This document shows, piece by piece, positions 19,396 to 54,934 of a DNA stretch of 64,000 nucleotides. The notes under the pieces are model-generated. The model had not been told where the DNA came from, did not search any database, and saw only the letters and a program-made list of their open reading frames with translations. Positions within the stretch are counted from its first letter, which is position 1. Every line of letters begins with the position of its first letter. Location: positions 18,101,001 to 18,165,000 of the forward strand of contig CM073321.1 of NCBI GenBank assembly GCA_037043015.1, in the 5' to 3' direction. The position numbers and the translations under genes are program-made. The stretch is from Bryum argenteum (taxonomy: Eukaryota; Streptophyta; Bryopsida; Bryales; Bryaceae).

Positions 19396-20700
19396 TAGAC
19401 CACTTCATGGAGCGACATGAGCTCTTCAGGGCTCATTTCAGCTAATGGCTTGTGAACGTAGACACTTCGATAGAAGGCAGCTTGAGGACCACACTGCAAC
19501 TTCTTGAAGTCAGACCATATCGTCCGCACCTGGAAGACGACTTGTTGAGCTGGAGAAACCCAATACGGAACCTGCGATATTGCTGCATAATAAACGGCTA
19601 ATTTCAGAGCAAAATACTCCATACGGGTGTGAAGGTACGTCCTGAAAAGTGAGCATAACACATAATTCGTTATAATGGGAATATATACTGATTTTGGTAA
19701 TAAGAGAGATTTTCATTTAGATCGATTCTGACCTGATTAGTTACCAAATCACCAGGTTTTTACTGATAATAATGAATTTTCTCAATATAAAAGACAATCA
19801 TAGAAAAGAATTCATAATGCAAGCTAAGAAATATGCTCCCCCAAGAGAATATTTTATTCATATGAAAGCACAAATACAATTTATTGGTGTAATTGTAGAC
19901 CTCCAACAGGTAGGCACTATATTATCTACCAATTACGACGTGGCGGAGAGGAGGTATCACCAGAAGTATCATTCTTAGTAAATAGAGGGTCCTCACTACG
20001 TGTGTAGTTAGAGAAGGCAGGTTCGTCCATCTCCATAAGCCCACCACTTCTACGACGCTTCGGTGCAAGTCTCCGTAATAGACGGTGAGTCTCAGTCGAA
20101 AATCGTGTTGGATGAACGCGAGTGTTTGCCCCAAGAGATAAGGAGCAATGAGCCAGAGTATTTGGCAAGGAACTATTTAGCTCGAATCGAGCGAAATAGG
20201 CACGGGCGTCGACGACGGGGTTGCGTAATACAGCTTCACCTTGGGGAGCCGCTGCAACCGAGGTCATCACACCGATTCGATCATTGCCGGTTGCAATAAT
20301 TGGTTGAATCTCAATAGGGGGACTGTCTACTACACCATCATCGTCATTATCCATGTCCTCCTTCGTGTAGTCTACAGCCGACGCATCGTCCGGAGCAAAG
20401 TAGATTAGCCGTCCCCGCATTCGTTCTGAGAAAGTTCTGGAGTCGTCACTTGTAATGGAAGCCTCTAAACCGTCGAAGGACCAATTACAAGATTTGCTTG
20501 CAAAGCATATGATGGATGTGGAGAGAGCTGACGTCCAACAGCAGCAACCTGGTTCATAAACACAGCCATATTAGCAAGTGAGTCCAGGACACTAAGTGCA
20601 ATGAAAAAGGTACACAATATAACAACGCATTTAATCATGTATGTCGAGGGTGGATTCACCAATCGATCTACAATATATCTCCATCTAAGCAACCGGTAAA
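19396..20700 (-). pseudogene. Unrecognised multi-exon gene C, decayed
   Basis: Minus-strand frames include about 20540-20465 (VAAVGRQLSPHPSYALQANLVIG), 20420-19926 (acidic YTKEDMDNDDDGVVDSPP, later KRRRSGGLMEMDEPAFSNYTR) and a last exon about 19638-19396 after an acceptor TTTTCAG (TYLHTRMEYFALKLAVYYAAISQVPYWVSP...MSPEELMSLHEVV). A family A palindrome at 20176-20196 lies in frame and adds ARFELN. These pieces may be the 3' part of the FCP1-like gene upstream or a separate gene. I recognise no domain. Confidence 0.3.
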
Positions 20701-20749
20701 CATAAGCTCTCTAGGGTAAAAACCAGAATAATACCACTATTAAAAGAAT

Positions 20750-21821
20750 TTAAGGCAAATTCTTCCCACTGATTCGGTCCTGATTCCACAAATATGGAAG
20801 ATTACGGCTCAAGAGCATATACAACTCTGAGTCCTTCGACAGTTCATTATGCGTGGGTCTACGATGGCGCATAGTCTCGGCAAAATTCTCAGGACCTTTC
20901 AAATGCACGGCAAGACAAATCTCGCCTATCTTTTTTAATAACTCGGACTTTGGCTCCTCCGACAGGAATAGTTCCACAGAACAGTGAAAAGTGTGTTCTT
21001 TGTGGGAACCGCAATGCAAGTCTCAGGCTCGGAATCGACAATGAGCAAGTTATCGTCATTGAAATTGGCACCCTTCCTAGGATACAACCGACGCCGAGGA
21101 TATTTTAAGAAGATGGGATTTGTCGTGCCGGGGTACTTGGCGAATGCGTAATTCTTCAACAACAGATTATCGCATTGGTTGGAAGTCAAGACAAGTCCAA
21201 GGGCAGCGTCTGACTTTGAGAACAAAAAAGAGCAGAATCTATGGACAACCTTAGGATCTAGGGTACTCTAGACGTGGATGTGGCAAAACAAATCTAATAT
21301 GCGAAGGAACCCGGTCAACCCGGGACGACAGTAGACGACCCTGCCGGCAACTAAGGTTGGGACGGTGGAGGAAAACACCGGAGGACTACTGGGATCCGGA
21401 AAAGATAGGCACTCTGCAGGCGTTGGGGTAGACACAGAGGCCATCGAACATATAACCCCGTCCAACTCCAACATCACATTCAACCACTTGGGCTTGGATC
21501 GTAAAAGACTGCGGGAGATATGCGTAATGGGTAGCTCGGGCGAGATACGCTGTTTGGGATGTTTGGACGGTCCTACCTGCAGCGAGGGAACACGTAACAA
21601 TGGCAAATGGTATTAAAACAAGAGGGTGTGTACCTTGCAAAATGCTGAAGTATGCAAAGAACTGCCAACACTGATTGGGTACTGAACCGCCACACCCAGA
21701 GGTAACATGAGGTGGTTGGCGGGGGATTTGGAAGCAATCGGACGGAACAAGGTATTCAGAAGGGGGGCCTGATAGAAAAGGACGAAGTTTAGGGCCTTGT
21801 GATGAGAAGGACGCAGACTCA
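20750..21821 (-). pseudogene. Probable FCP1/NLI-interacting-factor-like HAD phosphatase homologue, decayed
   Basis: Exon 21821-21634, donor GTACAC, acceptor CTGCAG, second exon from 21576. It reads SKPKWLNVMLELDGVICS, then VVYCRPGLTGFLRILDLFCHIHV, stop, STLDPKVVHRF, SNQCDN, and FNDDNLLIVDSEPE. The order LDGV, RPG-x-x-x-FL, HVWS-like, QC, N-x-L-L-I-x-D-S matches the FCP1-homology (HAD) fold of CTD phosphatases. The nucleophile position of DxDG reads ELDG, so catalysis is doubtful. A TAG (21268-21270) sits where the family has Trp, and a frame change is needed near 20990. The reading frame of the first exon is unresolved. It lies between gene A and gene C on the same strand. Confidence 0.5.
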
Positions 21822-21860
21822 CTGAAGATAAAAAGTGATGTGAAATAAAAGAGTCTCAAT

Positions 21861-21866
21861 TTTATT
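21861..21866 (-). terminator. AATAAA polyadenylation signal, probably of gene A
   Basis: On the minus strand CAATAAAATTGAG lies about 250 bp after the last clear exon of gene A and just before the acceptor of the FCP1-like gene. The assignment is by position only. Confidence 0.35.
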
Positions 21867-23362
21867 GAATGATGTTCCAATAAGTACAACGATTATAATT
21901 GTACTATGTACAAAAAGCGAAACAACATCCAATAATTCGGAGACTACTCGTCGACCTACTCGCCGCCATCGGTGCCGGACTCGTGTCAAACAAGCAGCGC
22001 CGACTTTAAGATTACTCAATGCGAAAACTTGAAGACATGAGGGAATAGCAGAGCAACTGCCATCACCATCAACGTTCACAAAGACAAAGAGAAGGAAAGG
22101 ATAGTAACTAACCTCTGGATTTACCGGTGAAGTTATAGCCGTCTCAGTAGCAGCCACAGAAGAGTCATCGGTAGGAGGAACTTCGGTAGCAGCCACGGGA
22201 GAGTCATGGGTAGGAGCATCTTCTGCATGCGCCCCCAATGCGACAGCAGAGGTGTGATGGATCGGCGTCGGCGCTGCCTCAATCGGGACTTCATCCTCTT
22301 TCTCCGGCTTCTCCAAAATCTCGAGGGGTATGGGGCGGGGTGCGATCTCCGGTTCAGCAACAGTAGGAGGTTGTGGAGGCGCGACGATGGGAGGTTGTGG
22401 AGGCGCGACGATGGGAGGTTGTGGAGGCGCGACGATGGCTGGTGGACTCGCGTCACAGATGCTGAGGCGAGGTTGATCGGGGTTGATGGAGGCAATGGGT
22501 TTAGGATAACTAGGCAGTTGGGATAAGATATTTCCGAATGATTGAAACATCTGCTCCATCTTGCCTAGTGCCATGCGGTTTTCGGACTGAGAGCTCAGGA
22601 ATGTGGACTCCAATCTGTCCACTCGAGCATTCGCGGCTGCGATATCTGCTAACCTTTGCTTCTCTCTCTCCGCTTCTCTCTCCGCTTCTTCCTTTGCCTT
22701 GCGAGCCTACAGAGCCTCCTTCTCTTGCCGCTTCTGTGCTCGCTTCTGATCCTTCGTGAGCATGGGGGCGACAACTTCCACTTTCACTGGTGGTTGTGAA
22801 GGCTCTCCTTCTTCCCTGAGCAGAGGCACGACATGGAGAAGAGGATCATCCTCAGCCCTCAAAGGCTTTGGAGAACTAGGCTCCTCCGAGAAGTCGTAAA
22901 ACCGGATTTCCAGAGTATCCTCCGGCTCGTCCTCGGGCTTCCAAACACCTTTCACGAACCATTTGTCGTACTTCCCCTTCTCAATCTGCCTCCTGGGTGC
23001 GCTCTGCGGGCCTTGGGGAGGAGGCGCCAAAGTAGTCTCCTCCTGGGATGGATCAGGAGCCACCTTGTCGTCTAAGGTCATGGCCGCGAGATGAGCATCA
23101 TCAGCTTGGTCATCGTCGTCCCCGTCGCCATGGCTCGCACCCACAACATCGTCATTGTGTGACGAGTCAGAGCTGTCGGATGATGATGCATCCCGTGGCA
23201 CACGCTCTTGCCCGAGTTCTACATCGTCTTTGCCAAAGAGATCCCGGTAGATACGATCGTTCGAGTTCTTTGAACGAACCTCCCTCCAAAACCCCGGGGG
23301 TGGAACACTGTGCTGAACCGGAGTCCTAGCGGCCCCAAATCGACGACCCTGGAGACTGCTGG

Positions 23363-23383
23363 TTTAGCTCGACTCGAGCTAAA
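23363..23383. repeat. Family A palindrome inside an exon of gene A
   Basis: A 21-bp perfect dyad (TTTAGCTCGA, one C/G centre base, TCGAGCTAAA) lies in the last coding block. In the upstream frame it reads LARVELN and a stop follows within 45 bp. Taking out 22 nt (the palindrome plus one base) joins the upstream frame to the long downstream frame QGRRFGAARTPVQHSVPPPGFW. This fits insertion into a once continuous exon. Confidence 0.8.
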
Positions 23384-24083
23384 TCCTCCTCCGATGGTCG
23401 ACCACGACGCAAGCGCTGGAGGGGGGGGCTCTCAATGTCCCCGACGACATCGCGGGCGCCATAGTTGGCTTCGAGCGCCGTCTGTGCTTGAGGCACAGTA
23501 GCGCTTCTGGACCGAGAAGCCTCTCCAGCTCGCGCCTCAGAAGAAGAACGCTTGGTAGATTCGCTCGGAGGTGCGCGTGCTGTACCGCGGCCATGAGACG
23601 CAGAAGACCGAGCTCGACCGCTTCCACGACCCTGAGGGGGAGCACGAGCAGTACCACGACCACGAGGGGGAGCACGAGCAGTACTGGACGGAATTGCCAC
23701 CGCAGCCCAGTCAATTGCGGGAGGAGACACTAGAGGAACAGCTGAATCCATGGGGGAATTCATCCCCGCCGGAGAAGAAGGACCACCTTCATCTTCACGC
23801 TCGTGCTCAGAAGCGGAAGAGTCGTCGCTTACAGGCTGGGTGGTCTTCTTCTTAGACTTCCTCTTCTTTCCCTTCCCCGGCCCTTCAGCAGAAGGCTTGG
23901 GACCGCGATTAGCTTCCGGATTTACGTATGTTGCGACGTTGATATCGTTGTAGTCTATATGTTGGTAATCCGTCGCAGCATTCGTATAAGCCTCCTTCTC
24001 GGTCTCGCTGATAACAACATATATCTCAGCCTGGCACATCTGTTTTAGAAGGAGACAGAAACTTATAAGAAGACTAAGAGAAA

Positions 24084-24206
24084 ATAGCTCGACTCGAGCT
24101 AAAAGGCCATGGACAAAATACAAAATGAAGAGATTTAAGCATGAGACCGTTTAGCTCGACTCGAGCTAAACGAGCATGAGACCGTTTAGCTCGAGTCGAG
24201 CTAAAC
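24084..24206. repeat. Three family A palindromes in one intron of gene A
   Basis: Copies at 24084-24105, 24149-24170 and 24184-24206 lie within the intron 24250-24040. The second and third share flanks (GAGCATGAGACCG), which suggests local duplication of a 35-bp unit. Confidence 0.9.
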
Positions 24207-25634
24207 GAGCATGAGAAGTTCAAATTGAAGGAATGGTGCGAGGTACTTACAATTCCAGCCAACAGTGGCTTTGTGCCACCCATAATCGATAAAAACTTCC
24301 CACCCGGAGATGAGAACATCTTCAACACCCAACAGTAGAACTCCAATCGCAGCTCGGTGTCACTAAGACCAAGGTCGTGTTCTCTGTACGCGTCGGGCTT
24401 CGAGTAGAGGGGCAACTCTGGAGCGTAGAATACAGAGGGTATCGCATCAAACACACTCTGAGCATGGCTGCTCTTCTTGACAAGCAAGAGGAGGGGGAGC
24501 AAGTGCTTCCCTGAAGCTTTTCCCTCTGCAATGCCGTTGAAACGCTCGTTGCTGGCCGGCATGTAGTTGGCTGCCTTGCGAGAGTACTCGTCCTTCAACT
24601 TCTTGTCGACATAAACCATTGCCTGGCAGTGACGGTCGATGTTGGAGGTGATGAACAACCAAACCTCGGGATTCTTGATGTGAGGATCGGTCACGGTGTC
24701 TGCCCACACATCAAGGAATTCTTGGAAGTATGGACTCTCTGTGTCGTCCACTCTACTTCCACTCCCTGGGACAGCTCGCAAATCAATCAAGCCTAAATCA
24801 CACTTGCTAGATTGGTTCCAGGCGTAGTTCTTGTCCCAAATCCCGAATTTGAACTCGGAAGAGTAAAAGAGCCGCGTGTAAACAATCGGTGCAGGAGGTT
24901 CAAACGTCCCTTTGACATCCAGGAACTTCTTGAACAACTCGGCTGCATATTCCGAAATCTCTGCTGCACTCCTATTCTTCGTCTGCTTTTGGCGGTAGAG
25001 GGTGAAGAACGAGTCGCCCGGGACCGAGAGAAGCATGGACATAGTCTGACGAGTCAGATTGTATTCCACCTTGAATTTCCTCCAGTTGTCGACGTCGAAG
25101 TGCCACTCGGAGTCGAACAAACCAAGCGAGGGCTTGAGGTTGTGCAATTCCCTCGCGACAGTGTTCTTCCTCTTCCGATTCTTGACCCACTGCTTCGCAC
25201 TCATACACTGGAAGTATTTCTTCGCAGGCTTCCTCACGGCCACCTTGGGGTAGGGCATCGTTCGATCCGGAGTCTCGTTCAGCAAGTGCTGCGCCAAGAC
25301 CTCGAGGTTCTCCGCGTCTAACTGCCCCATTCCCTTGAAGAACTCCCTGCTCAAGGTGAACTTCTTTGAGACGGTCTCCCAATCTTTCCCCTGATTGAAT
25401 GGGAGCTCGGTGTCGGGGTCGATCAGCTCACCAAGACTGTAGTCTGTGATGAACCTCTTCCACAACTCGTAGACGTCGTCCGGAGATGTGATGATGAGGA
25501 GCTCGTTGCGAAGGTCGGATGGTCTGACGATCTTGTCCTTCGCGTTATTTGTGTTGATGCTGATGAACCTCTTCACCATTGCAGCCGCGAATGCCTGCAC
25601 GAAAGCCTAAACGATTAAGAAACAACCTATGCTG

Positions 25635-25658
25635 TTTTAGCTCGAGTCGAGCTAAAAC
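25635..25658. repeat. Family A palindrome in intron of gene A
   Basis: The extended dyad GTTTTAGCTCGA/TCGAGCTAAAAC lies in the intron 25732-25595. Another copy, TTAGCTCGATTCGAGCTAA at 27096-27116, lies in the first intron. Confidence 0.9.
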
Positions 25659-27378
25659 GACGTCCCTAAAAACGTCGACAGAGAATGCAAACAATGTCAA
25701 CCAGAGAAAGAAAAGAACAAGTAATCTCATACCTCATAACGCTTCCGGTTATCTACTTCAACCGGTGTCTCACGTCGATGCGGCTTCTTGAGTTTCTGAG
25801 GGCGGCCATAGTCTTCCCAAACCTTTCTTGCGCCCATGATGTTCGTTGCCCAGGAAGGTATGAACGTCCCAGAATTGTTCGTCTTGTTCGCCATGGCCGA
25901 CACGTCCAGAATCTTGCTGATGTCGAAATGCCACACAACATGGGCTTTCCATGTCTGAAGGGCAAGGATCTTTGAGTCGTCGATCTTCTTGTCACGAATC
26001 AACTATTTCGCAGCCTCAACGTGGTGTTGCCCGTCGATAATTCGGAACCGACAAGATTGGACCAGATCTCCCCAATCCCACATCTCAGGCTCAGCTTTGA
26101 TCTTCGGCATAATAATGATGGTTTGCCTCGAAGTAACATCGAGGGAATTCATCAAGATGTTCTTGTAATGCGCGATGCCGGCCGGTTCCAAAGATCGCAC
26201 GATAAACCTTGGTTCTACAGGGTCGAGCAGGTCGATCGATACGTCAAGCGGATTGTCACGTCCGAAGACATAACACTCTGCACAGTTGTCCCAGTAGTCC
26301 TTCAGAGACTTTGTCGCTTCCTCATACTTCATCTCCTTCTCCGAGACAGCCACGTTCATTGTAGGGTTCATGAACGTAAGTGCGCTGCCGGAGGATTTGC
26401 TCCTCTTGGAGCCAGAGCTGGATGATATCGGGTTTGCCCGCTTCGTTCCCTGCACGCCTAGACTTCCCTCTGGAGTGCCTAGACCCGACGGAGCATTCTC
26501 GGATGGAGCCTGCAACAGTAGACTCCCGGACCGTTTCATCAGAGCCTTGCCTTTCTTCTTTGCAGTCTCGAAATCAGACAGAGCCTTCCAGATCTGCGCA
26601 GTGTATGGAATGTACGATCTAACGAAGGCTTTCGGCGAAGACACATTCGGCTGCAATCTCGTGTCGATATGAAGAAGCTGAGTGGGATCGACCTTCCCGA
26701 CCATATAGTTGCGGATGAAGTCGTGGGAGAAACGGACTTCATTGGGGGGAAATACAATAGTGAAGACGAAACCTTCGACCTCCACTGCTTCGAACTTGAT
26801 CATGAGGAATTCGTCTTCATAAGTAACAAGTTCGATGAAGGCATCAAGACACAGAGGTAAAAATGCCCCGTGAGACCCGGATTGTTGATAGAAGAAGAAA
26901 TGGGTCTTGTTCATCGGACGAATAGACCAAGACTTTATGGAATTTGGCTTGGGGTCCACAACCTCCCCCATTGCGCGTCCACAGCAATAGCTGCAAGCGG
27001 ATCGTCTGGTGCTTCGAGTTGTACAGGTGCAAGGAATCCCTCCAGGGCTTGCATGTTATAAGTGACCTGTGGATAACAAATTAACAGAGGGCGAATTAGC
27101 TCGATTCGAGCTAAATAGACACATGAGATGGGAACATAGATATGAAGTGGACTATTACCTCAGGAACAGACTCTTGCTGCACCGCATCCATGTCCACTTC
27201 AATTTCCGGCTCGGCAGGTGCATTCGCAGCCATCTGAACAATTCTGGCAGTCTGTTTGGTTCTCGGCATCACTGTCATTCAACAACTGAGAATCACATGT
27301 AAGATTCACAAGGGCAGTAAAATATCGTCATTATCTTGACGCTCAAATCCGACATGTCTAGATTAGGTGGCGAGATCA

Positions 27379-28324
27379 ATTAGCTCGACTCGAGCTAAAT
27401 GGGCTTGACCTTAAAACAAGGATCGCGACCATGTAGCTCGAGTCAGGCTTCATATGCATGAGGCTGAACCTAATAGAAAGTCCATTTAGCTCGACTCGAG
27501 CTAAATGGGCTTGATATCTAATACGGAATATGGATTTGACGTCAAACAAGGCCAGGCCCATTTAGCTCGAGTCGAGCTAAATGTGCTTGACCTTCAACAA
27601 GTCAGTAAGCCCATTTAGCTCGAGTCGAGCTAAATGGGCATGACCGGCTACAGGACTGTAAGCCCATTTAGCTCGAGTCGAGCTATATGGGCTTACTGCC
27701 CTGTAGCAGGTGAAGTCCATTTAGCTCGACTCGAGCTAAATGGTCCTGACCTTGTTTCAGGTCCGTGACCATTTAGCTCGAGTCGAGCTAAATGGGCATA
27801 CTGCTCTGTGGCAGTTCAAGCCCATTCAGCTCCACTCGAGCTAAATGGTCACAGACGTCAAACAAGGCGAGGCCCATTTAGCTCGACTCGAGCTAAATGG
27901 GCTTACTGCTTTTTTGCAGGTCGAGCCTATTTAGCTCAACTCGAGCTAAATGGGCCTGGCCTTGTTTGAGGTCCGTGACCATTTAGCTCGACTCGAGCTA
28001 AATGGGCTTGAACTGCCACATAGCAGTAGGCCAATTTAGCTCAAGTCGAGCTAAATGGTCACGGACCAGACACAAGGTCAGGCCCATTTAGCTCGACTCG
28101 AGCTAAATGGGCTTTACCTGCAACACGGCAGTAAGCCTATTTAGCTCGAGTCGAGCTAAATGGGCTTCACCTGCGACAAGGCAGTAAGCCCATTTAGCTC
28201 GATTCGAGCTAAATGGGCTTACTGCCTTGTTGAAGGACAAGCCCATTTAGCTCGAGTCGAGCTAAATGGGCTTACTGCCTTGTCGCAGGTGAAGCCCATT
28301 TAGCTCGACTCGAGCTAAATGGGC
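27379..28324. repeat. Palindrome family A array, ~53-bp period, 18 copies
   Basis: Eighteen copies of the 21-bp dyad (arms TTTAGCTCGA and TCGAGCTAAA around one C or G) start at about 27380, 27434, 27486, 27561, 27613, 27666, 27720, 27772, 27826, 27879, 27929, 27982, 28036, 28088, 28140, 28193, 28246 and 28299. Apart from one 75-bp step the spacing is 50-54 bp. The roughly 30-bp spacers are themselves a degenerate hairpin (GGGCTTACTGCC...GCAGGTGAAGCCC) that appears in both orientations, so the array alternates two dyads. Substitutions in the palindrome are mostly CG to CA or TG. The array lies just 5' of gene A. Confidence 0.95.
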
Positions 28325-28363
28325 GTGGTGGTCTTTGTGATAAATAATTTGATGAAGTTATAT

Positions 28364-28475
28364 GAGCATCAAGCTAAATAGGCATCGAGCTAAATGGGCA
28401 TCGAGCTAAATGGGCATCGGGCTAAATGGACATCGAGCTAAATGGGCATCGAGCTAAATGAGCACCGAGCTAAAG
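28364..28475. repeat. 16-bp tandem half-palindromes (GAGCTAAATGGGCATC)
   Basis: Seven tandem copies of one arm of family A joined to a short linker directly follow the array. They look like a secondary tandem expansion from half a palindrome. Confidence 0.85.
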
Positions 28476-28499
28476 GAGCTGAAAGTTGTAAATGAGCGC

Positions 28500-29170
28500 A
28501 TTTCAACAGCAAAACACAAATTTCGAAGCGAAAAACACAAATTGGAAGACCTCCATTACTCCGCGAGCAACATTTCATAACATTGTGCCCTGGAAATCTG
28601 AAAAAGCTATGAAACTGCAAACTGATTCCAAAACCTAAACGTCTAGAATTACGAACTTACAAGATAGCTCGTGAAAAATTGCGCTGCAATACGCAGGCAG
28701 GGGCGATGGAGGAGGCAGGTGCGATGGAGGAGGCGCGAAAACCTGCGACAGCGAGCGCAGGAAGGGCGCTGAAAGCAGCGACGCGGAGAGACAGATTCGG
28801 CGCAGACAGCAAGCGCAAACCTTGGCGGGAGCGGACCTCGACACAGCTGGCGCAGAGACACAGAAACACGCAAACACAGATGGAGGAGGGTGCAAGCAGA
28901 CAACAGAGGGCGCTCAAACACAGATGGAGGAAGGTGACAGCACACAACGGAGGGCGCTCGACACAGCGGTGGAAAGGGGAGCGACGGAGCGGCGGGAGCG
29001 ACTCTGCACTTGCGACAACGGAGGGAGGGTTCTGTGAGGCGGGCGGATTGCTGTCGGCGGAGGTCGTTCCCGCCCAAGCAGCCCGTCCGCCGCCTTTTGG
29101 AGGCTGCCCGGGCTGCCTGCACGGCCCTGTCTGCCCGGGCTGCCCAAATTTTTTTTTTTTTTTTTTTAAT
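28500..29170. other. GC-rich low-complexity DNA, no convincing gene
   Basis: The frames on both strands (180 and 201 residues) overlap each other and follow repeated words such as CACAGATGGAGGAGG. It ends in TGCCCGGGCTGCCC followed by about 18 T. It may be promoter or 5' flank of gene A. Confidence 0.4.
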
Positions 29171-30890
29171 ACTTTCTTTGTACTTTTTTTGTATAAGGAG
29201 TTGGTGCATGGGTATGGATAAAAAAATGGGGAGAAAATATTTTGTGTACTTCATACTTTATATAAGCTATGGAAATAATCCTAGTGCCAAAAACAAATAC
29301 TAAATCAATATTCAAAAATCATTTGGTTTCATTAGGACTACTTGAAGTTTTTAATGAGTGGGTGGTGCCTTTGTTTAGGAAATAAAGGGTTGAAAATTTT
29401 TTGGAAATTTTCCTAGGTGATTGGTACCCTATAAAGTATATAGCGTGTGTTTTGGAAGCATGCAAGAAATAAAAGTATTTTTGAAGTAGTACACAAGTTT
29501 AATTATTTAGACTTATCAAAATAGGAGGCGCTTTGAGATGTATTTAAAAGAAGATGAGAAAAACTATTTTTAAATCGTAGGTTAGCTAACCTATAAAATG
29601 GATGGTGATATTTAGAAATTTGTGAGAAACAGGCATCTATATGCTATGAGTTTCTTACAAAAGTTTTAACACATTGGAACTTAAAATAATAAGGGAAGAA
29701 TAAATAAAATGCGGAGAAAAAAGATTTTTGTACTGTGACTAGCTAATAATAACCTTAAAAAAATTAATGGATCATAAAATAAATCATAGGAGTAACCCAT
29801 CTATGTGTCATCATTTACGTGGACCTTCCAGAAATTTGAATAAGGGGGTGAATAAGAAAATGATGGAAAGAAGGTGATTTTAATATCTAAAATAGCTAAA
29901 TAGGACCATATGAATGTGGTGGAAGTGTAAAAAATATCATAGGGCAAATGGAACTATGTCTAAAAAATTTTGTGAGAATTCAATAACCCAGCAGAATTTG
30001 AAGTAGGAGGCAAGTGCAAGTGTAATTATGCGCAAAAAGGGAGGGAGAGTGGTTTTTATAACTTTGATTCATAATTCATGTCATATGATAATTATGGTGA
30101 AAATATTAGGACCACGAGAGCAAAAGAAGTATTTTTTTTTTCAATTTTTTTTTCTGATTACTTTAAAATTTTATGTTTATTTTATATGTTTTTGTTTTCA
30201 CGCATTGAATTAGATTAGTTCATTTCTATGGTCAAAGCTTAAATTAATTCGTAGGAAATCAAAATAAAGTGAATAAAGATATTTTTAAATCCTAGAGTAA
30301 TTATCCTATAAAATTGTTAGTAATACCTATAACATTTATTACTTCAGCAAAACGAATCTACACGCTATGATTTTTTTGCTTGGATTGTCTTGTAAGTTAC
30401 CAATGGTAAAGATATTGAATATATTATAGATTGATAACCATACTATGTACATGTTTAAGCCTGTGTTTTGTTTTCAAATGCACTTTAGGGACAGCCAAGA
30501 ACAGAATATGAATCCCAACTGATTCTCGAAATCTAATTTTATCATTTTATTTAAATTAGTGCATAGAACTAAAGTCCAATTAAATTTACATATAATCCGC
30601 TTATTTATGTTTAAATGTTAAATTCAAAAGACAAATCCCAATGAAATCTTAGAAATCGGATTTCATGATTTTATCACAATTAGTGAATAGAACCAAAGTT
30701 TAAACAAATAAGATCTTATTAATTATATTTTCATTCCTGTCGATCATAATTTAGGAGGAAAACTGTACGCCCAATGTAACGGGTGACATTGTAAGATTCG
30801 AATCATACCAGAAGAACCATTGCGCTTCTACTACATCGCTTTCTAGCTACTGGAAAGGGGGGTGGGAATGAGGCTTTGTTTGAGGGAGGG
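29171..30890. other. AT-rich, no gene recognised
   Basis: No long frames, RNA genes or transposon ends are seen in this 1.7 kb. Confidence 0.45.
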
Positions 30891-30903
30891 GACGACTATG
30901 AAC

Positions 30904-33855
30904 GTTGGGGCCCCAACTGGAATAGTTGGAGCCCCATTTACATCGATTGGGGCCCCAATCGAATAGTTGGGGTCCCAAATTTGAATAGTTGGGGCCCCAC
31001 CGCATCGATTGGGGCCCCACTTGGAATAGTTGGGGCCTGTTTTGCATCGATTGGGGCCCACTGGAATAGTTGGGGCCCCACTGGATCGATTGGGGCCCAA
31101 TTTGAATAGTTGGGGCCCCAGCTGGAATAGTTGGGGCCCCAATGCACTAGTTGGGGCCCACTTGGAATAGTTAAGGTCCCCAACAAGACTAGTTGGAGCC
31201 CCAATCGGAATAGTTGGGGCCCCCACCAAGATCGATTGGGGCCCCACCGCATCGATTGGAGCCCTAGTCGGAATAGTTGGGGCCCCACCGCATCGATTGG
31301 GGCCCCACTGAATAGTTAGGGCCCCACAAGATCGATTGGGGCCCAACTGAATAGTTGGGGCCCCAAATGGGATCGATTGGGGCCCAAATTTGAATAGTTG
31401 GGGCCCAAACAATAGTTGGGGCCCAGGGCCACAATGAATAGTTGGGGCCCCAAACACTAGTTGGGGCCCCAAATGAAATAGTTCGGTCCCCACAAACACT
31501 AGTTGGAGGCCCAACTGGAATAGTTGGGGCCCCATGGAATAGTTGGGGCCCCCAAATTTGCTAGTTGGGGCCCCAATGGAATAGTTGGGGTCCCCAACAC
31601 ACTAGTTGGAGCCCCAATCGGAATAGTTGGGGCCCCACCATCGATTGGGGCCCCAATGCATCGATTGGAGCCCTATTTGGAATAGTTGGGGCCCCACCGC
31701 ATCGATTGGGGCCCAAATGGAATAGTTGGGGCCCCAACAAGATCGATTGGGGCCCAAATTTGGAAATAGTTGGGGCCCCCAAATGGATCGATTGGGGCCC
31801 AGTTTGAATAGTTGGGGCCCAAATGGAATAGTTGGGGGCCCAACGCACTAGTTGGGGCCCATTTGGAATAGTTGGGGTCCCAAAAAGCACTAGTTGGAGG
31901 CCCAACTGAATAGTTGGGGCCCCAACAGACATCGATTGGGGCCAGGGGCCCAAATGAAATAGTTGGGGTCCCCAGCTGCACTAGTTGGGGCCCCAACTGG
32001 AATAGTTGGGGCCCCCAGCTGCATCAATTGGGGCCCCAACTGGAATAGTTGGGGCCCCCAGCTGCATCAGTTGGGGCCCCAGCTGGAATAGTTGGGGCCC
32101 CAACAAGATCGATTGGGGCCCGAATCGAATAGTTGGGCCCCCAAGAAGATCGATTGGGGCCCCAATCGAATAGTTGGGGCCCCAACAACTAGTTGGGGCC
32201 CCAATCGCATCGATTGGGGCCCAAATGAATAGTTGGGGTCCCACCGCACTAGTTGGGGCCCTAATCGAATAGTAAGGGCCCCCACAAAGTGATTGGGGCC
32301 CCAACTGGAATAGTTGGGGCCCCAGCTGCATCAGTTGGGGCCCCGAGCTGCACTAGTTGGGGCCCCAGCTGGAATAGTTGGGGTCCCCAGCTGGAATAGT
32401 TGGGGCCCTAACTGCAATAGTAAGGGCCCCCAGCTTGAATAGTTGGGGCCCCAACCGCATCGATTGGGGCCCAAATTGGAATAGTTGGGGTCCCACAAGC
32501 GCTAGTTGGGGCCCCAATCGGAATAGTTGGGGCCCCAATTGCATCAATTGGGCCCCAAATTGAATAGTTGGGGCCCCCAAATGCATCGATTGGGGCCCCA
32601 CTGAATAGTTAGGGCCCCCACCGCATCGATTGGGGCCCGAACTGGAATAGTTGGGGCCCCCAGCTGCATCAGTTGGGGCCCTTGCTGGAATAGTTGGGGC
32701 CCCAAACAGATCGTTGGGGCCCCAAATGATCGATTGGGGCCCCAAATGAATAGTTGGGGCCCCGAGCTGCACTAGTTGGGGCCCCAGCTGGAATAGTTGG
32801 GGTCCCCAGCTGCATCAGTTGGGGCCCCAACTGAAATAGTTGGGGCCCCGAGCTGCACTAGTTGGGGCCCCAGCTGGAATAGTTGGGGTCCCCAGCTGGA
32901 ATAGTTGGGGCCCTAACTGCAATAGTAAGGGCCCCAACAGCATCGATTGGGGCCCCACTGAATAGTTGGGGCCCCAACAGATCGATTGGGGCCCCAACTG
33001 GAATAGTTGGGGCCCCCAACTGCACTAGTTGGGGCCCAAACAAGATCGATTGGGGCCCCAATCGCATCGATTGGGGCCCCACTGAATAGTTGGGGCCCCG
33101 AGCTGCACTAGTTGGGGCTCCAGCTGGAATAGTTGGGGCCCCCAGCTGCATCAGTTGGAGCCCTAGCTGGAATAGTTGGGGCCCCAGTGCAGCGATTGGC
33201 GCCCACTGAATAGTTGGGGCCCCTGCTGCCGCATCGATTGGGGCCCCAACCGAATAGTTGGGGCCCCAACAGCATCGATTGGGGCCCCAATTTGAAATAG
33301 TTGGGGCCCAAATTGCACTAGTTGGGGCCCCACTGAATAGTTGGGGTCCCAACAAGCACTAGTTGGAGCCCCAATCGGAATAGTTGGGGCCCCGGCTACA
33401 TCGATTGGGGCCCCACTACATCGATTGGGGCTCAAATGAATAGTTGAGGTCCCCAGCTGCACTAGTTGGGGCCCCCAGCCGCATCAGTTGGGGCCCGAGC
33501 TGGAATAGTTGGGGCCCCATTTTGCATCGATTGGGGCCCCACTGAAATAGTTGGGGCCCCAGTGCATCGATTGGGGCCCCACTGAATAGTTGGGGCCCAA
33601 CAAGCACTAGTTGGGGCCCCAAATGATTGGGCGATTAGCCCCAATCGATGCAAACTGGGCCCCGAGCTGCACTAGTTGGGGCCCCAGCTGGAATAGTTGA
33701 GGTCCCTCGCTGCTCTAGTTAGGGCCCTAACTGGAATAGTAAGGGCCCCCAGCTGCATTAGTTGGGGCCCTAACTGGAATAGTTGGGGCCCCAACTGGAA
33801 TAGTTGGGGCCCCCAGCTGCATCAGTTGGAGCCCTAGCTGGAGTAGTTGAAGCCC
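30904..33855. repeat. Palindrome family C array (GGGGCCCC dyads), ~3 kb
   Basis: More than one hundred units of about 23-26 bp, each centred on GGGGCCCC and separated by short words of a few kinds: AACTGGAATAGTT, AATCGCATCGATT, AACTGCACTAGTT. A typical dyad is AATAGTTGGGGCCCCAACTATT-like. Long frames on both strands (to 230 residues, GPQLFQLGPQ-type) come from the repeat. No gene lies inside. Such sequence should be very prone to hairpins and replication slippage. Confidence 0.95.
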
Positions 33856-34102
33856 GAGGTTTAGTTTGAATTTATACTTTTACATTTTTAAAACTGATTT
33901 TAGAATTTTAGATTTTTCAAACCTACTATAGACTTTTACATTTTCTATTTTTAATTTGAAAAGCACATTAAAAGCTTGTTTAAGTAACTATATAATATTA
34001 AGACTGTATATTATATTTATTATAATATATATAGATATTTTGTGCGTTAAACTTTATTGCCTTATATTTCATTAGTCTATAATTACTCACTTTATTGTAA
34101 AG
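33856..34102 (+). other. AT-rich 5' flank of the RING-like gene
   Basis: Base composition changes sharply from GC-rich repeat to more than 75% A+T at about 33860, leading into the open frame at 34103. TATA-like words are abundant, so none can be picked as promoter. Confidence 0.3.
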
Positions 34103-34645
34103 ATGGATGAGGTTGTAGTACATGAGGCAAAAAAACCTAGAATTGCACAAGTGACTGCCCTTAACTTCATAGAATCGCAAAATGTTTTAGAGTTAATATA
34201 TGATTCTAAAACGAGAGGTTGTAAAGCTCCACAACACTCTCAAAAATTGTTCGATTGTTTGTATGTTCTTTCATGCAAAAAAACTTTAGAGTGCGAGTAT
34301 TTCCATAAAATATTTATGGACCCAGCATCTAGAGTAGAATTGCCTATTCTTGCGAAACAACAATATTATGTTCATTATTGCCACAAAATTTGTGGTACTT
34401 GCCTTGAAAAGACATCACATTGTCCCATATGTGAAAATTTGTTGAACGTTGATTTCCGAAAGCACACAAAATATATCTTAGATACATCGATCACTAAAGA
34501 TATTGAAATAACTTCTTTACAAGATTTTCATGATACTTTTGATCGATTACAAATCTTTTTACTAAAAAGGAGTGAAAAACAAAAAGAAGATGCCGCTTTC
34601 AAACAAGATATTTCAATGTGCATTGATGCAAAAAGGATATCTTGA
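34103..34645 (+). CDS. RING-like zinc-binding protein, unknown
   Basis: An ATG-initiated frame of 180 residues. After a basic start (HEAKKPRIAQV) it shows Cys/His ligands in DCLYVLSCKKTLEC and HYCHKICGTCLEKTSHCPICENLL. The second block matches the H-x2-C-x2-C-x6-C-x2-C half of a RING finger; the first half is atypical. Codon usage is very AT-rich compared with the genes on either side. It stands alone between a GC-rich repeat array and 3.6 kb of AT-rich DNA. A second frame overlaps its end. Possible roles are ubiquitin ligase or DNA-binding factor, and origin by transfer is possible. I do not recognise a close family. Confidence 0.5.
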   Translation: MDEVVVHEAKKPRIAQVTALNFIESQNVLELIYDSKTRGCKAPQHSQKLFDCLYVLSCKKTLECEYFHKIFMDPASRVELPILAKQQYYVHYCHKICGTCLEKTSHCPICENLLNVDFRKHTKYILDTSITKDIEITSLQDFHDTFDRLQIFLLKRSEKQKEDAAFKQDISMCIDAKRIS

Positions 34646-34925
34646 ATTATTTATTCTCAAGAAATTTGATATAAAAACTGACATGAGAATTGTTATTAGC
34701 TACACAAGCATTCCAGCAGATAAAAGTAAAAAAGAAACACCATATTGGGAGAATGTCAAATTTGAAAATGCATGGCAAGAAGTTTATGAAGACAATCATC
34801 TTATACCAACAACATCTATTGCTTCATTATTATTAGATGGTAATAAAATAATAAATGATAAAATATTAAATCCAAGCGATTTATCACTGAATCATGTTTT
34901 ATTCATTTATATACCTGAAATATGA
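34572..34925 (+). CDS. Unrecognised ORF overlapping the RING-like ORF
   Basis: This frame overlaps the RING-like gene by about 75 bp and runs to TGA at 34923-34925. It is hydrophilic with some beta-strand-like segments (MRIVISYTSIPADKSKK, NHVLFIYIPEI) and has the same AT-rich codon use. The two frames may be parts of one ancestral gene or two overlapping genes. The sequence alone does not decide. Confidence 0.35.
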   Translation: MKNKKKMPLSNKIFQCALMQKGYLELFILKKFDIKTDMRIVISYTSIPADKSKKETPYWENVKFENAWQEVYEDNHLIPTTSIASLLLDGNKIINDKILNPSDLSLNHVLFIYIPEI

Positions 34926-35574
34926 AATAATGATCTGGTTGCATATCAAAGCACATTAGCTGAAGCAGATATATATTATGAAACTGCTCCGTACAAGCGG
35001 AGGTCCAATCAAACAGACCCAAAAAGGGGTTATTATAAGTCCGTGGGCCATGGGTACATAGCTCATGGAGGAGTAGACTCAAGAGGAGATGTGGTACCAT
35101 ATGATCGGAAAAACATGCCTTAAAGCAAAAAACTTGCTTTCAGACGTATAGGAGATTCTGTTGCAACAAAAATTGAAACTACTTTATCTACATTGTAATA
35201 AGTCGTTTCTCTGAAATCGTTTAAAGTTGTTTTTCATTCTAACAACAGAATCAGCATGGAGACCTGCTAATACGTAAACATTAACCAATTCAGGAATAGT
35301 ACCATGCCATATTTACTTGACAACGAAATATGTATGCAGAATGGATGACTTAGAAAATCCACTCAAATTTCCACAGAACCATCCAGCACGACAAAGTTAC
35401 CGAACGAGTAACTAGGCCAAAAAATGTATCAGGAAATCCCTATCCCCGTCACACGCTACAACCGTTCATGAATATAGCGCTTCAGTAACGAGAAACCGCA
35501 ACAAGTAACAAATTATGTCGATGACCTTTTATCGTGAATAATGTAGGAACGGAGCAATGAACCGGGCAGCTTGT

Positions 35575-35640
35575 TTTACGGGTCTCAAGCAGATTCGAAC
35601 CTGCGACACAGAAAAAGCGGATCCACCCGTCCCTGAATTC
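35575..35640 (-). other. tRNA-like 3' half / SINE remnant
   Basis: On the minus strand, GTCGCAGGTTCGAATCTGCTTGAGACCCG contains a perfect B-box (GGTTCGAATC) in a T-arm-like stem-loop. No matching 5' acceptor half or A-box is seen upstream, so this is a tRNA-derived fragment and not a working tRNA. Confidence 0.4.
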
Positions 35641-35789
35641 ATGAAAAACTGTACAGGTTTCAGTGGGCGAAGCCACCCATTGGTCCGAGGTTTTGATTGG
35701 CTGGATCGTAATCCCCACATGACGGATGGGTTCACGAACGTCGCCGCCCCCAAGTCGTTGAGGACAGCTTTCTACTAGTGTCTATTCCG

Positions 35790-38575
35790 ATTGTTTACAT
35801 TCTTTAAAAGAAATATGAGAGACGACACGGAACTTGTCTTAAGTTTCAATTTGGTGCGTAAAGTTTGAAGCAAACACTCGAACGTTCTGCAGTCTACCAT
35901 GTTCAATAATGACGTCGCTGCTTTCTCATTGCTTAGGAGCTGTTAGATCCACAAAAGTACAACGCTTTTTGTTACAAAGTTTGCGATTTCGCTGTTGCCA
36001 CAACAAATACACATAGGCAAACCTAAGATTCTCAAGATTGTAAGTTACAGAATTACGGTAAAACATTTTCGATTGTTCATACACAACTCTCTTTAGTAAA
36101 ACATGCTCGATGTTTGATATACACCGTTGGTGATGTAATGATTTTATGATTTACCTTTATTACATTATTATCTTCTATTATAACAAAATTTTATAAGATC
36201 CTAAATCTATTGTAAATGTTATAATATTGTAATTTATTGTTGATAGAGTCTTGTCCACGATTGTATGGACCAAACATGATTTACGTATATTTAATATATG
36301 ATGGTTTAATATCACATGATTTAACATGATATGATATAATAATTTTTAATTTAATACAATTTAATAAAGTAAAATAGAATATATAAACATTTTCCATAAT
36401 ATTTAATATACATTTATAAGAAATATATTTTCAAATAGTATAATATAGTAAAATAAAACATATTAGAATATTGAATAAAAATTAATATAGTTTAATATAA
36501 TAGAATAATTAATTTTATTTGATATAGGTTAAAAAACTATAAAACTTTGTGTAAAGTAAACCGACCATTTGAAAAATTCATAGTAATTATTCAAATTCGG
36601 TACTGCAAAAAAAGGGTTTCCAATGTTACAAACATTTCTTACTTGGATATTCAATGTTTCATTGCATCATTGCAAACCCCCCTCTTTGTGAGTAGTGAAT
36701 GCAATACTGAAACATGAAATCTGATTAATTAAATATTGTTGTAAATTTGAGAAAATACTCGCATTCTTTCGTATACCAGAACTCGTAATATACGCCTAAC
36801 ATTATAATAATTTTAACGTAGTTTATTAAGTGATAATTTTTTATTTAAACTTGGTTTAATTTATTTTTTTACATTTGGTTTTAATTATTTATTCTATAAA
36901 ACAATTTAATCTTGAGATTCTTAAAAAATTTGCGTAATACTAATAAATACCTTTGACTAGTTTTCCTCAAAAATTATATAGTGTTCGTCGGAAGAATTCT
37001 AAAATTTATGTTTTTCGATATTTTTCCATTGATACAGATTGGAATTCAAAGTAACTACCAGACAAGTTTATAATCTTTTATAGTGTCAGCTGTAGTTATG
37101 ATTCAAATTTAAGTGTTTAGGGATAAGGGTTTAGTCTAGAATTTAAGGTTTAGAGTTTACAAATTAAGATTTAGGTTATAGTGTGTAGGGTTGAGGATTA
37201 AGGGTTAATTAATTTTAAAGATCATGATTTAGGATTGCAATGTAAAGAGAAGCTAGATAGCAACTTTGTGGAAGAAAGCGTAGATGTGGATACATTCTAA
37301 ACTTTTGAAAACAAGTTAAGAATACCATTGATACTAAAAAACTCATCTTAGCATAAGAATTGAAGTAAAACTAAATATTATTAAGTTTGAATATCACACA
37401 TAGAATATGAAACCAGTAACATATATAAACTCACTGAATGTTAACAAGACTTAATTCTAAACCAATAATTATATATTTCAAATATCATATATGGTAATAA
37501 TACACTTGAAAAAGCTAAGTATTAAACTTATAATTCCTCAACTTATTCACTGTCTAAATACTTATATAATAGTATCTCACATAAATATATTGAATATTGT
37601 ATTTACAATATGCATTTGTAAAATAATACATTCAACCTATTGAATATCATACTTAATATAGCAGACCTAATTAGGTAGAAACTAATCTTATAGAATCACA
37701 TTTTAAAAAACTCAATATTATATTTACTATAACCGTTGTAAAGTGCAAGATATTAGTCATTTAATATTACACATGTTTTAGTAAGTGCGAATGTTACAAT
37801 ACCTCACATCACCTGTCGGTACCTTACTGCTCTAATTTAGTATGAAATAAAATTAAGTCATTTAAGACTACATAAATCCAAGGTCCACGACGAGAACAAT
37901 TTGTGTTCCATCTAAACATTTGATAAGTTAGTATAAATTTCAGGTAATTTAAACATTTTCTATTATTTACCCTATACTCTATTTAAGGTAATCTTGTAAA
38001 CTATGATTCAAATAACAAATGACACTATCTCTTTAACAACTAGATAGAAGTTTCTTTTTCTCGTTGTGTAGTCGGATGAATTGCGGTAAAAAATGATTGC
38101 AACAATGGCAAAAGTATTATTATTATTAAAGTTATTGATTTATGAAATATCAAAGGTTAAGTTAATTATGGACTAGGGACTAGAGTTTTTCATTACGGTT
38201 TTATGCTTTGATGTAAACTTGACTAATTTCCAATAAAATAGAAGAGGTGTCTTCACTAAAGTGCATTCCATTGATTCATACTTTATTCCAAGGTTTAGAA
38301 TACAAACTAGACTTGATTTGGAACAATACCCAAGTGATTTCATCCAAAACGGACCTCGGATGAAGAAGATATGGCTATTCAAAGTACTGCCTTCTATCCA
38401 AAATATCGTTTTTTGACATTCGGCGCATTTAGGGGTTAACATTCTAGTGCCCAATATGAAATTATTTTGTTAGTTTAAGTTTGGGTTATCCATTTTCCTC
38501 GCGAATCCGGCTTTTTTCATTACAAATTATGAAATTTCTATTTTTAGAAATATTCCGGATTTCTCGGTGACTTAA
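35790..38575. other. AT-rich intergenic DNA, no gene recognised
   Basis: Very AT-rich (TAATATAA runs at 36250-36540) with no coding signal. A 93-residue minus-strand frame at 38173-38454 has no recognisable domain. Confidence 0.45.
37108..37212. repeat. Degenerate plant telomere-like repeats
   Basis: TTTAGGGATAAGGGTTTAG, AAGGTTTAGAG, GATTTAGG, TGTAGGGTTGAGG and TTAAGGGTTA follow one another. They are variants of TTTAGGG, as often seen at interstitial sites in plant genomes. They are far too degenerate to be a chromosome end. Confidence 0.4.
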
Positions 38576-38582
38576 CTTCAAA

Positions 38583-38960
38583 TGATTTTTACTGGCCCAA
38601 GATGTCCTCGTTCCTCCCAAAGTTCCCAAGATGTCCTCGTTCCTTGCGAAGTTCCCCGTTCCTCGTGAAGTTCCCCGTTCCCGCCGAAGTTCCCAACCAC
38701 ATCGCTTTTACTCAATACCGTTACTGGCCGTTTTTGGCGCCCTTTCTCTTTTGAGTTCGTGCTCTTTTTTGGCGCCATTTCTCTTCCCGCTTGCTCTAGC
38801 TCTCTCCTCATTTGCGCACTATGCGCTTTCCGCTCCTCTGCTGCTCCGCTCCTGTGCTCTTTCCGCTCCTTCGGTCCTGCTCCGCTCCTGTGCTCTTTCC
38901 GCTCCTCTCGTGCTCCGCTCCTGTTGCCCCTCGCCTCACCTCCGCACCTTCGCATCTCTG
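38583..38960. repeat. Pyrimidine-rich tandem words upstream of the DUF7869 gene
   Basis: TTCCTCGTGAAGTTCCCCG-type 20-bp units (about five) are followed by CTCCGCTCCTGTGCTCTTTC units (about four). Frames here are repeat artefacts. The stretch may be the promoter or 5' untranslated region. Confidence 0.6.
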
Positions 38961-39139
38961 CCCCTCATCTCTGTACACTACGTTTCGCCTAAACTCCCTA
39001 TTACCATTAGTGCTTCCAGTTTTGAAAATTTTGATTAGGGTTTGGGACTCTTAGTAGCTCTGGAGTTGATGCGCGTGCTGCTATTGAGGATGCCCAGGGC
39101 CTTCGTTGAAGTATTGCAGCTGTCAAGCACGGCGTGAGG
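38960..39139 (+). promoter_or_regulatory. Probable 5' untranslated exon with telo-box (DUF7869 gene)
   Basis: A telo-box (AGGGTTT) lies at 39037-39043, a known plant promoter or 5'-leader element. The sequence runs to a good donor, GAGG|GTAAGTT at 39140. A matching acceptor, GGCATTCAG, ends at 40236, seven bases before the ATG. The transcription start is not visible. Confidence 0.45.
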
Positions 39140-39418
39140 GTAAGTTCGATCTATATCCTCAATGTCAATGTATAACAAGAATTTGTTGTTGATTGGTCAT
39201 ATCTTGCGTTCATCGTGGTGCATTCCTGATGGCAATGGGGATATCGTCGGAGTAGTTGTGCACGGAAATCGAGGCAAAGATATTGTTTTACTTGTGCACA
39301 GTTCCCAAGAACGATTCTTAGTATTTGCTGTGCACGAATATCGAGGCAGTTTCATATAACAAATGCATGAAATATGGACAAGCTCATGAAATCCTGTACT
39401 TAAGGATTCATTGGATGA

Positions 39419-40142
39419 CCATTTAGCTCGACTTGAGCTTATTGGGCGTACTGCTCTGATTCAGTGCAAGCCCATTTAGCTCGAGTCGAGCTAAGTGGGC
39501 TTGACCTGCTACAGGGCAGTAAGCCCATTTAGCTCGACTCGAGCTAAATAGGCATGCAATGTATCAGAGCTGTAAGCACATTTAGCTCGAGTCAAGCTAA
39601 ATGGGCTTGACCTGCAAGCGTGTGGTATACCCATTTAGCTCGACTCGAGCTATAATGGTCATTGAGCTTTAACTCCGTCGTGGTGAGTGGTGAATAGTTT
39701 TCTTGAAGACTTGTTAGCTCGAGTCGAGCTAAATGGTCATTAAGAAAACTGTACATCACGCTTACCTCGAAGCTGTTGAAGCTTGAAGATCATTTAGCTC
39801 GAGTCGAGCTAAATGGTCTTCCTCTTCGTCATGCTTCAGGGTAAGAGTCATGTATTAAGATCTTCAAGACCATTTAGCTCGACTCGAGCTAAAAGGTCAT
39901 CCAGCTTTTACTTCTTCGCGGTGAGTCGTGAACAATTATCTTGATGACCATTTAGCTCGATTCGAGCTAAATGGTCATTAAGAAAACTGTTCACCACGCT
40001 TTTCTCGAAGGTGGTCATGTATTAAGATCTTCAAAACCATTTAGCTCGACTCGAGCTAAATGGTCTTCAATATACACGTGCATCGTGAGTATGTGGTAGA
40101 TTCTTACCTCGAAGCCCATTTAGCTCGAGTCGAGCTAAATGG
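39419..40142. repeat. Family A palindrome array in the 5' intron of the DUF7869 gene
   Basis: Eleven dyads start near 39419, 39475, 39529, 39580, 39634, 39714, 39793, 39872, 39950, 40037 and 40118. The first five are about 53 bp apart with the same hairpin spacer as the 27-28 kb array (GGGCTTGACCTGCTACAGGGCAGTAAGCCC type). The others are about 79-87 bp apart with a different, related spacer (ATTAAGAAAACTG, CACGCTT). The whole array lies inside the predicted intron 39140-40236. Confidence 0.95.
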
Positions 40143-40242
40143 TCATATATTCTCAATGGTCTTAGACATTATGGACTGCACGTAGATTAAGTTACCAGTG
40201 ATTTCTCATGATTGTATGTTTATTGCTGGCATTCAGGTTATC

Positions 40243-43200: not shown

Positions 43201-43259
43201 CTTTATTTGGGCATGCCAATTTAGCTCTAGTCGAGCTAAATGACCTCAATGCAATTTGA
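40243..43259 (+). CDS. DUF7869-family protein, probable RNase-H-like (DDE/D) transposase-type gene, intact
   Basis: Exon 40243-40296 (MELSESDGDGGFQHLFSE), intron 40297-40382, exon 40383-43259; 976 residues with no internal stop. The core includes ICCSKNYCQPFPREK (about 175), a zinc-ligand set CSTCDRM...HLHHQETH (about 370-400), then IIHDKMDHAKTACP (about 430), LHVQLDNAASDNKN (about 553) and VGHTHEDIDALFGRW (about 590). Three acidic positions in this order (DKMD, QLDN, HEDID) look like an RNase H-fold catalytic triad, which is my inference. The domain is known as DUF7869 and is multicopy in bryophytes, ferns and other eukaryotes. Its last residues (LALVELND) are supplied by a family A palindrome at 43219-43241. 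It is probably functional in coding terms; no terminal inverted repeats were identified. Confidence 0.85.
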
Positions 43260-43499
43260 GCTATCAATTTATCGTGTCGTGACTTTTTGCCAATAGATTC
43301 ATCTTAGAAATGCACGTAGAAGTCCTACCTCTCAACCGTAGTTAAGTATTGGTACAGTTGTTATGCCTTAAAGTCAACAATTCAAGTGTTTGTAAATTTT
43401 TGGAGTTGATTGTCGATTCCCAGTTTAATTGAGTTTATCGTTTTATTGTGCTCTTTTTGCAAATTGCTGTGAGGATGCATTTTGCTTTTGCTACTTTTA

Positions 43500-43600
43500 T
43501 CATCTTTTGTATTCAGTTTAACTCTACCACATGCGCGTTTAGCTCTACATCACGCGCGTTTTGCTCTAGAACACGCGCGCTTAGCTCGATATATATGTTG
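43500..43600. repeat. Degenerate family A half-copies with CGCGCG words
   Basis: GCGCGTTTAGCTCTA, GCGCGTTTTGCTCTAG and GCGCGCTTAGCTCGA follow each other at about 24-bp spacing. They resemble one arm of palindrome A. Confidence 0.6.
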
Positions 43601-43651
43601 GAATTTAGGTCGATTGGTTTTTGAGAGTTTGAATATTCCCATTATAACAAA

Positions 43652-45375: not shown

Positions 45376-45381
45376 CCTTCA

Positions 45382-48754: not shown

Positions 48755-48759
48755 ACGTA

Positions 48760-54664: not shown

Positions 54665-54934
54665 GAATATATTCTATTTTGTACATATAAATATACGACA
54701 ACGAAGTGATAGTGGACAGTGAAAGTATGATTGTGCAGGGTCATCATAACTGAAGGTGGCGGCGTAATGAGTTCAGAAAGTGTTCGAGAAGCGAAACAAG
54801 GAATTACTCGGCGAAGAAGCAATGACTGAAGAAGCAAATCCCAACTGTACGGATCCTCCGAATGTGAAGTAAGTTCACTTCGTGGTTTTGTGTCTATTTG
54901 GGAATGAATGTCATTAGGATTTTGGGGTTCAGTT

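Follow-up and report, generated by a model that had tools for sequence, protein, structure and literature searches.

Why should a gene carried by a moss transposon begin with the first residues of histone H3? The question is raised by a 64,000-nucleotide stretch of the Bryum argenteum genome (C1 18,101,001-18,165,000; hereafter the window), where a minus-strand gene, here called gene A, opens with a copy of the H3 tail. We demonstrate the anatomy of the transposon that contains this gene, the recurrence of its H3-like start, constraint on its second exon, and repeat arrays specific to each family of copies. The H3-tail observation, first made in an earlier note on this DNA, is confirmed and reaches further than that note had it.

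The H3-like tail and its recurrence

The minus-strand ATG at 27269, the second in frame, opens ATG CCG AGA ACC AAA CAG ACT GCC AGA, which translates as M-P-R-T-K-Q-T-A-R, the start that the earlier note had read there. Residues 2-8 of gene A (RTKQTAR) are identical to host H3 in the exact N-terminal register, as that note had also claimed; the comparison is with the five H3 loci read (L072, L073, L075, L077, and L078), where H3 starts ARTKQTARKSTGG and its N-terminus is also written ARTKQTARKSTGGKAPRK. CENH3 likewise starts ARTK. Beyond the tail the likeness to H3 ends, again as noted: MPRTKQTAR is followed by IVQMAANAPAEPEIEVDMDAVQQESVPE and the splice donor, and Pfam scans found no histone domain, either in the 482-residue product of exons 1 and 2 or in the frames of exons 2-4 as they stand in the window.

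Across the assembly (258.8 Mb in 25 contigs, C1 being 44.1 Mb), a degenerate DNA pattern for MPRTKQTAR has 52 matches and its reversed control none, so that the start is not due to chance. All 52 sites (the window and 51 others) were read; the copies, here family 1, share exon 1 and the upstream array, with 3 to 19 palindromes upstream in every one. A second family reads M followed by ARTKQTA, the H3 start itself: a codon pattern located 46 such sites, 43 of them directly after an ATG, and 12 of the 46 were read. Their exon 1 is MARTKQTATIVPAPAERDIRSGSQDE or close to it, and at each of the 12 an in-frame stop lies within 25 codons upstream, followed by a single ATG. Twelve further ATG-preceded ARTKQTA sites resemble H3 genes (five read). 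Family 2 and gene A have homologous second exons, about 48% identical; the remainder of exon 1 is unlike by eye, and synonymous divergence (dS) between the two families is about 4.7 (NG86; the sole pair giving a value, L016 and L094). Family 3 comprises 15 sites of the ARTKQTA search with GCGCGTACAAAGCAAACTGC; the three read show LARTKQTARI, then RGRGPDLVQKVFEKR or a close variant, a donor, and an intron with palindromes CATCGGKCGATCGMCCGATG, and their continuation after ARTKQTAR shows no relation to the other families. A pattern that fixed TG and left the first base of the preceding codon free had 19 non-H3 matches (L064, L067, L071, and 16 further), and in 17 of these ARTKQTA directly follows CTG. 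This CTG may be a non-AUG start, giving family 3 an H3-like N-terminus as well.

Each family has its own noncoding repeat: the palindrome TTTAGCTCGASTCGAGCTAAA in family 1, a 30-bp unit (TTAGGTAGMTGCCTGCTAAACGCACATCT) in family 2, and CATCGGKCGATCGMCCGATG in family 3. The family-2 unit lies upstream in 12/12 loci and also downstream of exon 1 in 9/12, and the family-1 palindrome occurs in none of these 12. A relative of the family-2 clade (L091/L092, with the tail MARTRTTARII) has a family-1-type palindrome in its intron.

Which ATG is used bears on whether the tail is truly terminal. The first in-frame ATG of gene A, at 27278, is three codons upstream of the motif ATG (MTVMPRTKQTAR); in family 1 it stands just 5' of an acceptor-like CAG (..TTGAATGACAG/TGATGCCG, the slash marking the junction), and the family-2 equivalent is CAG/ACATGGC in 11 of the 12 loci. 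To judge from these junctions, the upstream ATG of family 1 is probably removed with an intron of the 5' untranslated region (UTR), which would make the motif ATG the first of the exon; the upstream arrays would then fall in or before that 5'-UTR intron.

How well the tail is kept was followed through a protein search with exon 2, which gave 150 scored matches among 320 candidates, divided at 60% identity into family 1 (at or above, 105) and family 2 (below, 45). The earlier note had named paralogues without the motif as a refutation of its reading, and for the most part they did not refute it: 46 of the 105 family-1 and 32 of the 45 family-2 matches have the exact motif no more than 1.5 kb upstream, and many of the others that were read or matched have close variants. 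Some tails are nevertheless very different (MARTGSIAV, MAGIKSTAR), and decay is common among the copies. Conversely, 20 of 98 motif sites have no scored exon-2 match nearby. Among the 38 copies with a long open exon 2 (a frame of 430 amino acids or more without a stop), 26 carry the exact motif and 10 a variant (MPRTNQTAR, MPRTKHTAR, MPRTKQSAR, MARTGSIAV, MPRTKQTVR, MPRTSTTAK, MPRTKQIAR, MARTRTTAR, MARTKQTPT, and MAGIKSTAR); of the remaining two, C9:7644990 has a wrecked stretch in that place and C1:16815727 was not read. With a pattern blind to residues 4-6, 100 starts were matched (reversed control, 1), and these hold R2 in 96, T3 in 99, K or R at position 4 in 96, T6 in 90, and A7 in 95, counts in which R2, T3, and A7 are partly fixed by the pattern and the copies are related rather than independent. 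Position 4 has K 84 times and R 12 times; at position 5, Q occurs 73 times and T 19 times. Exon 2 of the open copies is itself under constraint. Nine pairs within family 1 have a ratio of nonsynonymous to synonymous divergence (dN/dS) of 0.17-0.70, a pair spanning families 1 and 2 has 0.10, and a pair inside the family-2 clade has 0.08, these being the 11 pairs that gave a value (a twelfth gave none) from copies picked for having no stop, a choice favouring low values.

The copies are unevenly spread. C1, 17% of the assembly, holds 31 of the 52 family-1 and 37 of the 46 family-2 motif sites, and its family-1 exon-2 matches have a median identity to the query of 82% (81 matches) versus 92% elsewhere (24). 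C1 thus seems to have retained old transposons, as would be expected of a chromosome that does not recombine, and may be a sex chromosome.

The transposon and its palindromes

Gene A belongs to a DNA transposon with terminal inverted repeats (TIRs) and a target-site duplication (table 1). Genome-wide, 1,319 TIR-like sites were counted with up to 3 mismatches (control, 0), and perfect 4-bp duplications flank 11 of 11 elements read: that of the window and ten others on C1, which share its ends and each enclose a family-1 start (CAAG, ATAT, TTCT, TTTT, TATT, TAGG, TAAT, GATG, CACC, and AGAA). Gene A adjoins a palindrome array, as the earlier note had said. The window has 36 TTTAGCTCGASTCGAGCTAAA palindromes (up to 3 mismatches; expected 0), all between the transposon ends. 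Of these, 17 precede gene A and 11 the DUF7869 gene, introns 1-3 contain five, and the last three lie one each in exon 4, near the DUF7869 stop, and at 20176. Two are read in frame, as LARVEL in exon 4 (23363-23383) and as LALVEL at the end of the DUF7869 protein (43220-43240).

Table 1. Features of the transposon and of gene A in the window (exon and splice readings on the minus strand; slash, splice junction)
Feature	Position	Strand	Basis or remark
Complete DNA transposon, 24,004 bp, holding gene A	19657..43660	.	28-bp inverted terminal repeats; GCAT duplication on both sides
Terminal inverted repeat, end beyond gene A	19657..19684	+	93% identical to inverted 43633-43660
NIF / CTD-phosphatase-like stretch, belonging to the C-terminal end of gene A or to another gene	20935..21612	-	PF03031 match in the corresponding part of copy L080
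Exon 4 of gene A, low-complexity, charged; interrupted here	22110..24039	-	3' end approximate
Palindromes in intron 3	24083, 24150, 24185
Exon 3 of gene A, about 450 aa	24251..25606	-	5' end uncertain by some 12 bases
Palindrome in intron 2	25636
Exon 2 of gene A, with the DGQHHVEAAK string; open in L016 but broken in the window	25733..27066	-	Acceptor CACAG/GTCACTTA; tblastn of copies, gene models, dN/dS
Palindrome in intron 1	27095..27115	.	Intron-1 site in 51/52 family-1 copies
Exon 1 of gene A: MPRTKQTARIVQMAANAPAEPEIEVDMDAVQQESVPE	27159..27269	-	Translation, donor GTAATA; same exon, with changes, in 51 other copies read
H3-tail mimic codons (M)PRTKQTAR	27244..27269	-	Translation and genome-wide pattern search
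Upstream palindrome array TTTAGCTCGASTCGAGCTAAA	27379..28319	.	17 sites, mostly about 53 bp apart
Second palindrome array, upstream of the DUF7869 gene	39422..40139	.	11 sites
DUF7869 gene, likely transposase	40383..43259	+	PF25273, E 1.5e-42
Terminal inverted repeat, end beyond the DUF7869 gene	43633..43660	-	Pairs with 19657-19684

The window copy of gene A is a pseudogene: exon 2 is frameshifted early, exon 4 has another frame break, and both contain in-frame stops, so that a full-length product is not expected from it. In copy L016, exons 1 and 2 are open (gene model), and exon 2 starts VTYNMQALEGF or close to it in the 42 family-1 copies where the acceptor pattern matched. No accepted Pfam family was found on the exon 1-4 pieces scanned. 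For the product of exons 1 and 2, Pfam at E up to 10 returned only N-glycanase_N (E 0.09, below its cut-off), and the NCBIfam scan of gene A had no match. The ParB label given to gene A by the earlier note is accordingly not supported, since neither Pfam (E up to 10) nor NCBIfam returned a ParB match; only the short string DGQHHVEAAK resembles the ParB motif. On the stretch of L080, PF03031 scores 23.2 bits against a cut-off of 21.8 (E 6e-05). The window copy of that stretch contains an in-frame stop. In this phosphatase-like domain the first Asp of the DxDx motif reads Glu (LELDGVLC). The DUF7869 protein gives a weak RNase H-like match and has 92 database homologues, of which those with a named species come from two mosses, Ceratodon purpureus and Physcomitrium patens; one Ceratodon relative lies, judged by its locus tag, on the V chromosome.

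Two further stretches of the window were noted. One, 30846-35780 (about 4.9 kb), includes a tandem array of the roughly 21-bp GGGGCCCCAACTATTC type (30.9-33.9 kb) and a 189-codon open frame (34076-34645), and is probably an insertion in the window copy, because its flanks are adjacent in 6 of 20 longer copies (L010, L018, L022, L023, L027, and L028). The other, 54771-55925 on the plus strand with 45156-49204, is a truncated copy of a third, related unit: it has a tail-less family-3 exon piece (VQKVFEKRNKELLGEEAMTEEANPNCTDPPNVK, 54771-54869) and a broken DUF7869 homologue on the minus strand (45918-48388), near one or other of which lie most of the 20 CATCGGKCGATCGMCCGATG-type palindromes of the window, one being at 18925.

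What the tail may do

The reading that we favour, to which we give about an even chance, is that gene A, as the accessory gene of a large moss TIR transposon, encodes a sequence-specific, VANC-like anti-silencing factor with the H3-tail mimic as its effector. Removal of Met would leave a free P/A-R-T-K-Q-T-A tail copying the H3 N-terminus; the body of the protein would bind the element's own repeated motif, arrayed before both genes and present in introns, and many H3-like tails would thereby be held at the element. These tails could capture or block host readers and modifiers of the H3 N-terminus, candidates being the PHD finger of a UHRF1/VIM maintenance-methylation factor, LSD1-type demethylases, and other PHD readers. 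In this way the element's promoters would escape silencing, as VANDAL transposons do through their VANC proteins. We infer here the expression of gene A, its DNA binding, its partner, and the direction of the effect. A local H3-tail decoy or recruiter countering silencing is favoured because of three things: the VANC-like layout, the SNAG and DPPA3 cases, and the residues kept. As to the last, A/P1, R2, T3, and a basic residue 4 are those used by readers of the H3 N-terminus.

The VANC proteins of Arabidopsis VANDAL transposons bind short motifs in noncoding tandem repeats and remove DNA methylation, with targets differing between families (PMC5735166), and the pairing of a transposon protein with its own family-specific repeat arrays is the VANC/VANDAL anti-silencing layout (PMC5735166, PMC10398659). 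The moss system has the same parts: a co-encoded accessory protein, family-specific arrays of short motifs in noncoding parts, introns among them, and different motifs in related families. It differs in its ends, its 4-bp duplications, and its DUF7869 protein. VANDALs are Mutator-like elements with a duplication of about 9 bp, and membership on that ground was rejected, the moss duplications being 4 bp in 11 of 11. An H3-like tail is not mentioned for VANC in the available part of PMC5735166, in which the effector step after target binding was named as open in 2017. DPPA3 (STELLA) binds the PHD finger of UHRF1, competes there with the H3 tail and inhibits maintenance methylation, so that DNA is passively demethylated, its first 60 residues being dispensable (PMC7686362). 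The proposed gene A protein would resemble it in rivalling the H3 tail for a PHD finger, but DPPA3 is a mammalian host gene and its mimic is not N-terminal. We know of no DNA targeting by DPPA3.

Several observations weigh against an anti-silencing role. The exact motif is missing upstream of 59/105 family-1 and 13/45 family-2 exon-2 matches, and the many decayed copies include that of the window. The exact K4 and Q5 are not needed in all relatives, since the tails MARTRTTAV, MPRTKTTAK, MAGIKSTAR, and MARTGSIAV show R4, T5, or greater departures. In 70 family-1 sequences, a codon test gave no significant synonymous excess within the motif (p 0.15; of 11 shared changes 5 are synonymous, where 27% would be expected), and 1 of 10 singleton changes there is synonymous. 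The Pfam and NCBIfam scans recognised no DNA-binding domain in gene A, and recruitment of LSD1 or other repressors would silence rather than activate.

The N-terminus might instead have another job, such as docking to the element's DUF7869 protein, nuclear import, or DNA contact, with the H3 likeness incidental. We consider this rather unlikely, because RTKQTA is exact in two diverged families, ARTKQTAR recurs in a third with an unrelated continuation, and the conserved residues are the very ones that H3 readers engage. A tail bound at the element's DNA might also act like a SNAG domain, recruiting LSD1/CoREST-type or other repressors and so limiting the element's own transcription. The MPR start is as in SNAG, and arrays precede both genes. 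SNAG domains, those of GFI1 and SNAI1 among them, are H3-tail mimics at the extreme N-terminus of DNA-binding proteins, the place of the mimic in gene A, whose DNA binding is putative, and their peptides fill the substrate cleft of LSD1 (PMC5896174). Families 2 and 3, however, start with A, not P, and family 1 alone accounts for at least 105 exon-2 matches, so that the element has multiplied well. SNAG proteins are moreover animal host factors that read MPRSFLV, not RTKQTA, and SNAG is hydrophobic at position 4, where 96 of the 100 moss starts are basic; we judge self-restraint unlikely. Least probable is a capture, in which the transposons took the opening codons of a host H3 gene and keep them as a passive remnant. 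In its favour, the family-2 and family-3 codons are close to those of host H3, and the 29-base family-3 pattern fits an H3-like site (C2:30784778) with 3 mismatches. Against it, the codons of family 1 are different (both Arg are AGA, and AAA and CAA are used in most copies), its relatives have the intermediate tails RTRTTA and RTKTTA, and nothing H3-like follows the tail; nor would a passive remnant be expected to retain the basic residue 4 of 96 of the 100 starts or the T6 of 90.

An anti-silencing effector remains the reading that we prefer, and we would add, more tentatively and at less than an even chance, that at least two diverged families evolved, perhaps independently from an RTRTTA-like ancestor, towards the exact H3 sequence in this role, the many tails gathered on each element's arrays disarming H3-tail-dependent silencing factors of the host locally. 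The third family may make its tail from a CTG start. No transposon-encoded H3-tail mimic was found in the literature searched, and this would, to our knowledge, be the first known case of H3-tail mimicry by a DNA transposon. The presence of the mimic in at least two long-separated families suggests transposons that deceive the chromatin machinery of their host. If so, an effector copying seven residues of the H3 tail would turn the VANC-type effector step into something concrete that can be tested, and would point to a compact natural module with which plant epigenomes might be edited locally.
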